From contig NZ_JAOWKZ010000002.1 in the NCBI RefSeq assembly GCF_025751495.1, forward strand, positions 248,001 through 312,000: 64,000 nt of DNA, written 5' to 3'. A program made the position numbers and the translations under genes. The DNA comes from Albidovulum litorale. GTDB lineage: Bacteria; Pseudomonadota; Alphaproteobacteria; Rhodobacterales; Rhodobacteraceae. The notes beneath the pieces are model-generated. The model was not told the DNA's origin. It saw only the letters and a list, made by a program, of their open reading frames with translations, and did no database searches. Below are positions 29,660 to 31,310 of this stretch, piece by piece; the stretch's first letter is position 1; every line of letters starts with the position of its first letter.

Positions 29660-29989
29660 ATGAGCAGCGACACCACCACTCTCTCACGGCGCAAGGCGCT
29701 GACCCGCCTCGGCGCGCTTGCACTTGGCGCTTACACGATCCCGGCCTTCACGACGCTCAGCAAGGCCGAGGCCAAAGGCTCGGGTTCATCGGGCGGCGGG
29801 TCCGGTGGCGGGTCCGGCAATTCGGGATCCAGCGGGAACTCCGGGTCGAGCGGGAACTCCGGCGCCAGCGGATCCGGCGGATCGCACGGGACAACCGGCG
29901 CGAGCGGCAGCGAGAGCAACTCGAGCGGGACGACGGGCCCGAGCGTCTGCTCCGGACCGGGTGACGACGACGCCGGCTGCGGTGCTTGA
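29660..29989 (+). CDS. Tat-signal, Gly/Ser-repeat small protein (possible modified precursor)
   Basis: The 109-residue product starts with a twin-arginine signal (SRRKALTRLGALALGAY, arginines at 10-11, cleavage expected near residue 38 after SKAEA). The mature part is low complexity: GSGSSGGGSGGGSGNSG, then repeated NSGSSG units, GGSHGTTGASGSESNSSGTT, and a tail with two cysteines (Cys97, Cys107) and an acidic DDD between them. AGGAG lies six bases before the ATG. I know no family for it. The neighbour encodes an HPr-kinase/PqqD fusion, so this protein may be the substrate peptide whose serines are modified (inference). An alternative is a structural, collagen-like or adhesive secreted protein. 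Confidence 0.8.
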   Translation: MSSDTTTLSRRKALTRLGALALGAYTIPAFTTLSKAEAKGSGSSGGGSGGGSGNSGSSGNSGSSGNSGASGSGGSHGTTGASGSESNSSGTTGPSVCSGPGDDDAGCGA

Positions 29990-30017
29990 TCCCGATCAAC
30001 GCAGGCAGGTTGCATGA

Positions 30018-30056
30018 GACCCGACCGGAGCGGTAATGCTTCGGGCGGGTCCTTTT
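30018..30056 (+). terminator. Hairpin terminator between Gly/Ser protein and kinase genes
   Basis: Two 14-base arms (30018-30031 and 30038-30051) pair with one mismatch and one wobble around a six-base loop, followed by CTTTT. It lies 28 bases after the small gene's stop. Its short U tract suggests partial termination, which would give far more small-protein message than kinase message, as in many precursor-peptide operons. Confidence 0.75.
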
Positions 30057-30086
30057 CCTGATGGATCGCAAGTCGATGGAAGATAG

Positions 30087-31310
30087 GTGAGCCGGTCTAT
30101 CGATCTCATATTTGACGGATTGTCAGGACCGGTTCGGCTGAACGGTTGCGAAGAGTTGCTGCAGCCGATCCGAACCATCCTGCCCCATTGGCCGTTTGCG
30201 ACAATGCCATCGGCAGATGCCGCAGAGCCGATTACGATAATCTCGCCCGCATCGCGTGGCCGCTATTCCAGCGTCTGCCTGTCATCTGGTGGCAAAACCC
30301 GGGTCTATGACGCCATCGACGCCGTCTGCGACATGATCGTGGAACTGTCCTGGGAAATGCTCCGCTCTGGCCAGTGGCTGATGTGCCTTCACGCTGCGGC
30401 GATCGAGATGGCCGGGCGGCTGGTGATCGTTCCGAATGTGCGGCGCTCGGGCAAGAGCACACTGACAGCCTGCCTCGCCCGGCGCGGCTACCCGATATTC
30501 TCAGACGATTTCGTTCCGGTTCGTCTGGGCGATGACGGCATCCTCATGGGCCATGCCAACGGCATCTGTCCGCGCCTGCGCCTGCCGCTGCCCAAGGATT
30601 TCAGCGCGGGGTTCCGCGATTGGGTGGAGGCTGATCCCGGCCCGGCCAACAGTCGGTACAAGTATCTGACAGGGCCGGTTTTGCCACCCAATGGCACTGC
30701 CCGGCCGCTCGGCGCGATTGTCATTCTGGACCGAAGGCCGAATGCCTCTACCGAATTGCAGCCGATGGATGAGGGCGCCGCCATGAAGGCGCTGCTTCAC
30801 CAGAATTTCGCACGCTCCGTGCATTCAGCGACGATTCTCAACGTCCTGAAGGTTCTGCTTTCGGTGATAAAACCACTGCGGCTGAGTTACGCTAATGCCG
30901 AAGTGGCGGCCGACTTTCTGGCTGCGGCCTTCACAGACTGGCAAGGTCCGCCGCCTGTGGCGTCAGATACGGAACGGCTGGCCTTCCGCGAAATCGACGA
31001 AGACACACTCACAGCGGCACAGCCGGTCTTTTACGAAGACCGCGTCTATGAGCGGGCCAGCGGCATCACCGAAATGTCCATGAACGGTCACCACTACCTG
31101 ACGGATCGTTCCGGCCTCGGCATTCACAGCCTGAATTCTGGTGCATTGGCAATCTGGCGCTTGCTGGAGGAGCCCATGCGTCTTGCGGATGTGTCCGAGG
31201 TGTTATCGGCCGCCTTTCCGGACGTACCACACGAGCAGATCGCAAAAGACTGCGCCGAGGTGCTACGCCGCTTCGTGGAAAACCGGCTGGTCACTGCGCC
31301 GGACAAGTGA
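30087..31310 (+). CDS. HPr-kinase-like domain fused to PqqD-like peptide-binding domain
   Basis: Residues about 90-160 resemble the HprK/serine-kinase P-loop domain: CLHAAAIEM (100-108), Walker-A-like PNVRRSGKSTLT (116-127) and SDDFVPVR (139-146). Residues about 330-407 (HSLNSGALAIWRLLE to VLRRFVENRLV) match the PqqD/RRE fold that binds precursor peptides. HprK-like kinases phosphorylate serine, including in lasso-peptide precursors, so a role in modifying the adjacent Gly/Ser protein is plausible (inference). The first glycine of the P-loop is replaced by Asn117, so activity needs proof. The start is GTG at 30087 with GGAAG five bases upstream. No transporter or protease gene is adjacent. 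Confidence 0.75.
   Translation: MSRSIDLIFDGLSGPVRLNGCEELLQPIRTILPHWPFATMPSADAAEPITIISPASRGRYSSVCLSSGGKTRVYDAIDAVCDMIVELSWEMLRSGQWLMCLHAAAIEMAGRLVIVPNVRRSGKSTLTACLARRGYPIFSDDFVPVRLGDDGILMGHANGICPRLRLPLPKDFSAGFRDWVEADPGPANSRYKYLTGPVLPPNGTARPLGAIVILDRRPNASTELQPMDEGAAMKALLHQNFARSVHSATILNVLKVLLSVIKPLRLSYANAEVAADFLAAAFTDWQGPPPVASDTERLAFREIDEDTLTAAQPVFYEDRVYERASGITEMSMNGHHYLTDRSGLGIHSLNSGALAIWRLLEEPMRLADVSEVLSAAFPDVPHEQIAKDCAEVLRRFVENRLVTAPDK

Follow-up and report, generated by a model that had tools for sequence, protein, structure and literature searches.

A Tat-type leader gene paired with an HprK-RRE fusion in Albidovulum litorale: a candidate system for leader-guided phosphorylation of exported proteins

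Introduction

Leader-guided phosphorylation is known from lasso-peptide clusters, where a kinase related to HPr kinase/phosphorylase (HprK) is paired with a B1 protein, a PqqD-type RRE (RiPP recognition element, a RiPP being a ribosomally synthesised and post-translationally modified peptide), and where the precursor leader carries the motif YxxPxL (BsfK with BsfB1, ThcoK, SyanK and the pseudomycoidin kinase; PMC10368454, PMC8498205). This report concerns two genes in a 64,000-nucleotide stretch of the Albidovulum litorale genome (contig NZ_JAOWKZ010000002.1, positions 248,001 to 312,000, forward strand), which we call the window and whose own numbering we use. The first encodes a small Gly/Ser-rich protein with a signal for twin-arginine translocation (Tat), and the second encodes a single protein that joins an HprK-fold kinase to an RRE.

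The lasso kinases act on serine. BsfK, from Bradymonas, phosphorylates a precursor serine, accepts threonine in that place and is greatly accelerated by the RRE BsfB1, and the residues of the conserved YxxPxL motif are reported to be required for recognition by the B1 RRE (PMC10368454). PadeB1 is reported to bind its leader at ~5 nM (PMC5067487). Some lasso kinases polyphosphorylate one serine, and the phosphate of pseudomycoidin is further glycosylated by a nucleotidyltransferase (PMC8498205).

The window pair shares with these systems the PqqD-type RRE and the leader motif, and with BsfK the HprK-type catalytic residues at equal spacing. It differs in that kinase and RRE form one protein, the leader is a Tat signal, and the presumed substrates are longer repeat proteins and larger cargo proteins. 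Export would go through Tat, whereas an ABC transporter accompanies many lasso clusters. We do not regard the locus as a lasso-peptide cluster: no lasso cyclase (asparagine-synthetase-like) or B2 protease was recognised by eye among the open reading frames (ORFs) within ~5 kb in the window, where profiles were run on the two flanking ORFs, nor by eye among the neighbour families of loci with the fusion.

An HprK-related kinase with a PqqD-like protein is also found in the HPr-rel-A candidate system (TIGR04352 kinase, TIGR04353 PqqD) and in SynChlorMet (ScmC/ScmD). The window fusion does not belong to HPr-rel-A: it matches TIGR04352 (HprK_rel_A) at E=2.1e-12, yet its 46.7 bits fall far short of the cut-off of 200, and a relative scores 16.4 against 35 for TIGR04353. 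No paper on either system was found by name in the open-licence literature. The DUF2063/DUF2282 system, whose modifying enzyme we take not to be a kinase, is similar in another respect. Its DUF2282 precursors combine a general secretion (Sec) signal with a DUF2063-associated RRE partner, and no specific recognition motif is reported for them (PMC12710340); the window system has a Tat signal instead.

The window protein also shares the fold and the H/GKS/DD core of HprK but falls below the cut-off for Pfam Hpr_kinase_C (11.8 bits vs 33.3), carries an extra RRE domain, and has no match to TIGR00679 (canonical HprK) up to E=1, so it is not a member of the canonical HPr kinase family. In animals, multiply phosphorylated secreted proteins are made by Fam20C, a secretory-pathway kinase of unrelated fold and compartment; in the window system, modification would precede export.

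The sequence-only reading which first singled out this locus knew of no described system of this composition, and likewise we found no published account of the leader/Tat/HprK-RRE assembly in the open-licence literature, although subscription papers could describe one. The papers found there which pair HPr kinase with PqqD or RRE concern lasso peptides throughout, those that touch on RiPPs or RREs together with twin-arginine deal with phage display and a hot-spring metagenome, and the main texts of the RRE-Finder paper and its 2025 update contain no word beginning with "kinase". The parts themselves are known, and we file the assembly as a new variant of RRE-guided peptide phosphorylation, neither a lasso system nor HPr-rel-A.

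The gene pair and its distribution

The two genes are as follows, and both lie where the sequence-only reading had placed a Tat-signal Gly/Ser protein of 109 residues with a two-cysteine tail and an HprK/PqqD fusion.

29660..29989, + strand: small gene for a Tat-signal, Gly/Ser-rich exported protein of 109 aa, the candidate precursor and substrate (ORF with ATG at 29660)
30087..31310, + strand: gene for a protein of 407 aa with an HprK/PEPCK-fold kinase and a C-terminal PqqD/RRE domain (ORF with GTG start; profiles, alignment and model)

The pairing is conserved wherever the full-length fusion occurs in our samples. With fusions called at E<=1e-10, 23 of 295 genomes of the same family have one, the window genome included, and each of the 22 others has a small Tat-signal ORF immediately 5' of the fusion in the same orientation (in G123 the kinase is split over two frames, and in G032 the precursor is partly masked). 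Wider sampling gave the same result: a leader ORF adjoins six of six further full-length fusions in a phylum-wide sample (398 genomes), 12 of 12 in family f51 (fusion in 12 of 121 genomes, eight of them new) and three of three new fused cases in a class sample (385 genomes). The total is therefore 40 of 40 genomes, from seven families. Note that the search for adjacent leaders in the f51 and class samples required the YxxPx motif, so these rows are no test of the motif itself.

Defluviimonas aestuarii has the same gene pair, with a kinase 96% identical to that of the window, and the pair also occurs in three of the six plasmid records inspected, from Shinella and Paracoccus marcusii. On a P. 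marcusii plasmid (L171:3400-3960), the precursor ORF is frameshifted and unannotated while the kinase is intact. All six plasmid records found annotate the enzyme solely as "PqqD family protein", making the system easy to overlook.

The leader

The small protein has the features of a Tat substrate: a twin arginine at residues 10-11, a hydrophobic stretch and then AEA at 36-38. The NCBIfam Tat model TIGR01409 scores it at 13.8 bits, under the cut-off of 16.7. Its parts are:

29687..29749, + strand: putative leader recognition region, running from RR (residues 10-11) to the YxxP-x-hydrophobic motif YTIPAF at residues 25-30 (conserved in leaders; same motif in lasso leaders)
29774..29944, + strand: Gly/Ser-rich core, residues 39-95, the proposed phosphorylation region (composition; every Ser kept in D. 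aestuarii)
29948..29980, + strand: two-cysteine tail, Cys97 to Cys107 (Cys counts across precursors)

Across all 23 family precursors, the leader aligns without gaps over 33 residues, from three before RR to one past AxA, and RR, the Tyr, the Pro and both Ala (A30, A32) are invariant. The lasso-type motif, in the form YxxPx[LFMVI], is present in 39 of 40 leader proteins; of the 17 that had no part in its definition, 16 have it. For comparison, among 29 of the 31 other Tat-model matches in this genome (16 of these 29 above the model cut-off), one had the motif within 40 residues, outside the hydrophobic region. One locus (L135:3980-5213) encodes a leader protein that combines an Arg-rich stretch with SSSGG repeats and two Cys and lies beside an ORF resembling signal peptidase I; its leader has the Tyr of the motif without the Pro.

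Searches were also run from the leader side. The whole-precursor profile matched 36 of 295 family genomes at E<=0.001, with intermediate matches in G047 (8e-9) and G041 (4e-7) besides the strong set, and because of these intermediate matches we made a leader-only profile, i.e., one without the Ser-rich part. It gave 35 matches at E<=4.1e-8 (23 of them used in training and 12 independent), all of which fall in the 23 kinase genomes or in G196, which is 64% complete and where the contig breaks off ~300 bp beyond the precursor. Fifteen other family genomes had leader matches, all of them weak. Together with the co-occurrence in 40 of 40 genomes, this reverse search rules out a chance pairing of the small gene and the fusion.

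The best of the weak matches (9e-6) is in G007, whose PqqD-HprK fusion is of a different type. That locus (L097:4030-6540) combines NTP_transf_5 with a small ORF of Tat-like appearance and a fusion whose domains stand in reverse order, adjoins apparent polysaccharide genes, and is possibly a sister system with phosphoglycosylation. Near the whole-precursor match in G041 lies an HprK-like ORF: at L096:1397-2849, a small Gly/Ser exported-looking protein is followed ~230 bp on by the kinase, with a further small ORF between, and the kinase ORF (278 aa) is seemingly too short for an RRE. Nothing of this sort was recognised near the G047 match.

The low-complexity core

The mature part of the window precursor is 37% Gly and 31% Ser, with Cys at 97 and 107. 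In all 23 family precursors Ser ranks among the four most frequent residues of the core, beside partners that differ from one precursor to another (Gly, Ala, Pro, Glu, Arg, Val). Exactly two Cys occur in 14 of the 23 and none in eight (one of the 23 is partly masked). Compared with D. aestuarii, the proportions of nonsynonymous and synonymous differences (pN and pS) are 0.017 and 0.113, a pN/pS of ~0.15, indicating purifying selection.

We considered a strict Ser-x-x triplet as a universal hallmark and rejected it. Ser or Thr recurs at every third residue in 23 of 40 leader proteins (p<=0.02), and the 17 without significance include the window's own precursor (p=0.11) and the four f51 precursors tested. 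Some f51 precursors (e.g., L082:5454-5933) have a repeat unit YSRPx that sometimes reads YDRP, with Asp at the Ser position, which is consistent with Ser/Asp equivalence.

The fused kinase

Two regions of the fusion carry its assignment:

30390..30509, + strand: predicted kinase active-site residues H102, G122-K123-S124 and D140-D141 (invariance; BsfK-like spacing)
31044..31295, + strand: RRE (PqqD-like) domain, residues 320-403 (predicted to form strands and, after them, three helices; PDB sequence matches)

The sequence-only reading had named both an HprK-like core and a PqqD-like domain, and the two fared differently with profiles. Pfam PqqD matches residues 345-402 over its cut-off (E=2.2e-8, 34.8 bits vs 23.4), so the PqqD part stands by profile. 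The HprK part stands by sequence and fold, though the HprK-type profiles remain below their cut-offs: the kinase part matches HprK structures by PDB sequence (3tqf, 1jb1, 2qmh), and an AlphaFold model built on an alignment of 28 fusions (predicted local distance difference test, pLDDT, 93.6; predicted template modelling score, pTM, 0.90) finds PEPCK (E 8e-6) and HprK (E 4e-5) as the closest solved folds, with modest TM-scores of 0.2-0.4 over the whole chain and ~0.5 by HprK length. H102, Gly-Lys-Ser 122-124 and Asp-Asp 140-141 are invariant in all 28 aligned fusions, from which G123 was omitted because of its split kinase, and the spacings (H-K 21, K-D 17) equal those of BsfK H148-K169-D186. 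The fusion therefore has an HprK-like fold with an H...GKS...DD core.

An RRE is defined as PqqD-like strands followed by three helices (PMC12710340), and the model of this domain has that architecture, with strands at 320-349 and helices at 351-398. Its top PDB sequence match is 5v1u (TbiB1, E=3.2e-8), followed by a PqqD family protein (9x8z, E=5e-8), 6jx3 (TfuB1, E=5.1e-5) and a lasso PqqD chaperone. We take TbiB1 and TfuB1 to be lasso B1 proteins. Relative to D. aestuarii, the fusion has pN 0.020 and pS 0.199, again indicating purifying selection. A separate weak HprK-type match (E=0.08) elsewhere in the genome, in a 156-aa frame, may be its ordinary HprK.

Larger leader-bearing proteins

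Small stand-alone repeat proteins carry the leader, and so does larger exported cargo, in which a Ser-containing linker follows it; the substrate set of the system would thus be open. Six loci have a second leader gene 3' of the kinase, encoding a Ser-rich linker and a PepSY-related C-terminal region (two scanned by Pfam, with 26.6 bits over and 20.0 bits under the cut-off of 24; the rest assigned by similarity), and the same six carry a response regulator and histidine kinase (Pfam for one pair). A leader also precedes a subtilase in G135, in G026, where it is on a different contig from the kinase, and on plasmids; Pfam Peptidase_S8 matched the three subtilases scanned (G135, G026, Shinella). 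In G135, in G283 and on the Shinella and P. marcusii plasmids, the subtilase gene has as neighbours genes for an extracytoplasmic function (ECF) sigma factor and an anti-sigma-like protein, and the leader-only profile found no leader on the G283 subtilase.

The window genome itself encodes a second leader protein on another contig (G000 C9), with a leader match of E=2.4e-13:

L092:4962-5648, contig C9, minus strand: the other leader protein encoded by the window genome (leader, Ser/Gly linker, 115-residue domain)

The C-terminal domain of this protein is modelled with a pLDDT of 91.3, and has no Pfam match and no PDB fold match better than E=0.012. Its homologues allow linkers with and without the leader to be compared, using 13 of 16 matched genomes (G1143 was omitted for a contig end, G008 for a different architecture and G003 because it was not fetched). 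All 11 leader-less homologues have 6-54 acidic linker residues (8-70%), with Asp runs of 3-13, whereas the two leader-bearing linkers (window genome and G1136; domain 89% identical) have 0-1 acidic residue and 47-52% Ser+Thr. If the kinase phosphorylates these serines, leader-bearing and leader-less linkers alike would be acidic, and the Asp loss is in that respect a hint that points to phosphoserine and to function.

Split-type relatives

Many loci elsewhere in the class encode the kinase as an ORF of its own, ~280-330 aa long. We fetched 25 loci from the 29 class genomes without a full-length fusion. A motif search found a PqqD-like ORF directly after the kinase in 14 of the 25, ten loci being unsettled, and G310 has one by eye; the single such ORF scanned scored 51.5 bits with Pfam PqqD. 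A leader ORF adjoins the split kinase in 14 of the 25 loci. Nine of the remaining 11 genomes have a leader gene at another place (E<=4.2e-7), in six cases 25-43 kb off on the kinase contig; of the last two, one has a weak leader match (4.3e-5) and the other none. In L086 and L189, the split kinase adjoins a PrrA/RegA-like response regulator (by eye), with the leader genes ~40 kb away in several genomes, a possible case of conserved synteny.

Proposed mechanism

On balance, we favour leader-guided modification before export, in which the RRE docks on the Tat leader while Ser and Thr of the core are phosphorylated by the kinase. The C-terminal RRE of the fusion would bind the Tat signal through the embedded lasso-type YxxP-x-hydrophobic motif, and the attached HprK-fold kinase would then phosphorylate Ser/Thr of the low-complexity core. 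The phosphorylated protein would be exported by Tat, its leader being removed at AxA, and the product might be a polyanionic phosphoserine stalk or coat, although this last point is a guess. A lasso-type motif inside a Tat signal is a specific argument for leader binding by the RRE. Phosphorylation is suggested by homology, by the conserved catalytic residues, by Ser in 23 of 23 family cores and by the loss of Asp runs in the second substrate. More tentatively, the system might be a dedicated phosphoserine-tagging route, in which a lasso-type RRE reads a motif hidden in the Tat signal and the fused kinase coats Ser-rich stalks of stand-alone and cargo proteins before export, the coat taking the part that encoded Asp runs play in leader-less relatives; it could then represent a new RiPP-like class whose substrates include proteins as well as peptides.

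If leader-guided phosphorylation is correct, the export signal doubles as the docking site of the modifying enzyme, so modification and export could be ordered. Leader-guided modification would then reach beyond small peptides to larger secreted proteins (subtilases, PepSY-like), and exported proteins with multiple phosphates would have a concrete origin both in Alphaproteobacteria and in f51, which belongs to another class.

Several observations weigh against it. For the leader, the second-locus leader protein of G206 lacks the motif Pro, and the single exchanges Y(-17)A and L(-12)A in BsfA leave phosphorylation unaffected (PMC10368454). For the kinase, the P-loop is atypical (PNVRRSGKS, without two usual glycines); in BsfK, G166A and G168A kept near-wild-type activity while changing G163 lowered it (PMC10368454). 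Searched by spacing, only 19 of the 25 split kinases showed H/GKS/DD. For the target, polyphosphorylation confined to one Ser, which some lasso kinases carry out, would be as good a fit as phosphorylation at many separate sites. By eye, many split-type cores carry PSxC and a second Cys with few Ser, so a high Ser number is no defining trait; leader, kinase and RRE together seem to define the system, with the number of Ser varying. The proposal in the sequence-only reading that the kinase targets many serines is thus too narrow, given these cores and the leader on protease and PepSY-like cargo, and its interpretation overall is partly supported. Of the three observations that it had named as refuting, the two examined here, a lack of co-occurrence and a lack of PqqD/HprK matches, did not arise.

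The linker comparison also has counterweights: eight leader-less linkers of the same genus are themselves Ser-rich (27-49% Ser+Thr), so the contrast is mainly Asp loss; it represents a single evolutionary event; and kinase absence was checked in three of the 11 leader-less comparison genomes (G043, G070, G024). For export, genes for an ABC-type ATPase were seen by eye within ~6 kb on each side in five fused loci (L058, L068, L071, L072, L073), making an exporter other than Tat possible, though these are probably generic transporters.

Alternative explanations

The strongest alternative, which we regard as unlikely, is that the RRE-kinase marks leader proteins at a single or non-repeat site (such as a Ser close to the Cys pair or one within the leader), or that the phosphate is converted further by glycosylation or elimination, the Ser repeats being a mere flexible stalk. 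The Ser-poor PSxC...C cores of many split-type precursors favour it, as do the Ser-rich linkers in leader-less relatives of the second substrate and the precedent of lasso kinases, which modify one Ser and in pseudomycoidin supply a phosphate for glycosylation (PMC8498205). Ser is nevertheless kept in all 23 family cores while its neighbours change, and no lyase or cyclase was recognised by eye in the neighbour families of at least three fused loci. Phosphoglycosylation by NTP_transf_5 can be rejected: 22 of 29 genomes tested, including that of the window, have no match, and in the seven that do, the gene is away from the kinase.

Redox-enzyme maturation chaperones hold back Tat proteins, and the fusion could similarly be a Tat-signal chaperone for export proofreading or regulation that restrains its protein, the kinase domain being a switch with another substrate or none. 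NCBIfam names PqqD-type proteins peptide chaperones, the leader is of constant length in all 23 precursors, and regulators occur at the loci (response regulator and histidine kinase in six; ECF sigma/anti-sigma in two and on plasmids). We consider this explanation improbable, however, because the full conservation of H, GKS and DD argues for catalysis and because it leaves the Ser in every family core unexplained.

Finally, GC-rich DNA can yield Gly/Ser low-complexity ORFs, but the idea that a plain secreted repeat protein sits beside an unrelated kinase by accident, which the sequence-only reading had kept in view, deserves almost no credence: it is contradicted by adjacency in every genome with a full-length fusion, across seven families, by the specific conserved leader, and by strong leader matches confined to kinase genomes and one truncated contig.

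The intergenic hairpin

Between the two genes lies a possible regulatory structure:

30018..30051, + strand: GC-rich hairpin followed by CTTTTCC, between precursor and kinase genes, attenuator-like (sequence and fold)

A terminator scan reported no canonical terminator between the window's two genes, though the hairpin is visible. Among 17 intergenic stretches tested, with loci excluded where gene borders abut or are doubtful, folding reached z<=-2.5 in 11; the window's own z is -1.3. A hairpin in this position would fit a substrate made in excess over its enzyme.

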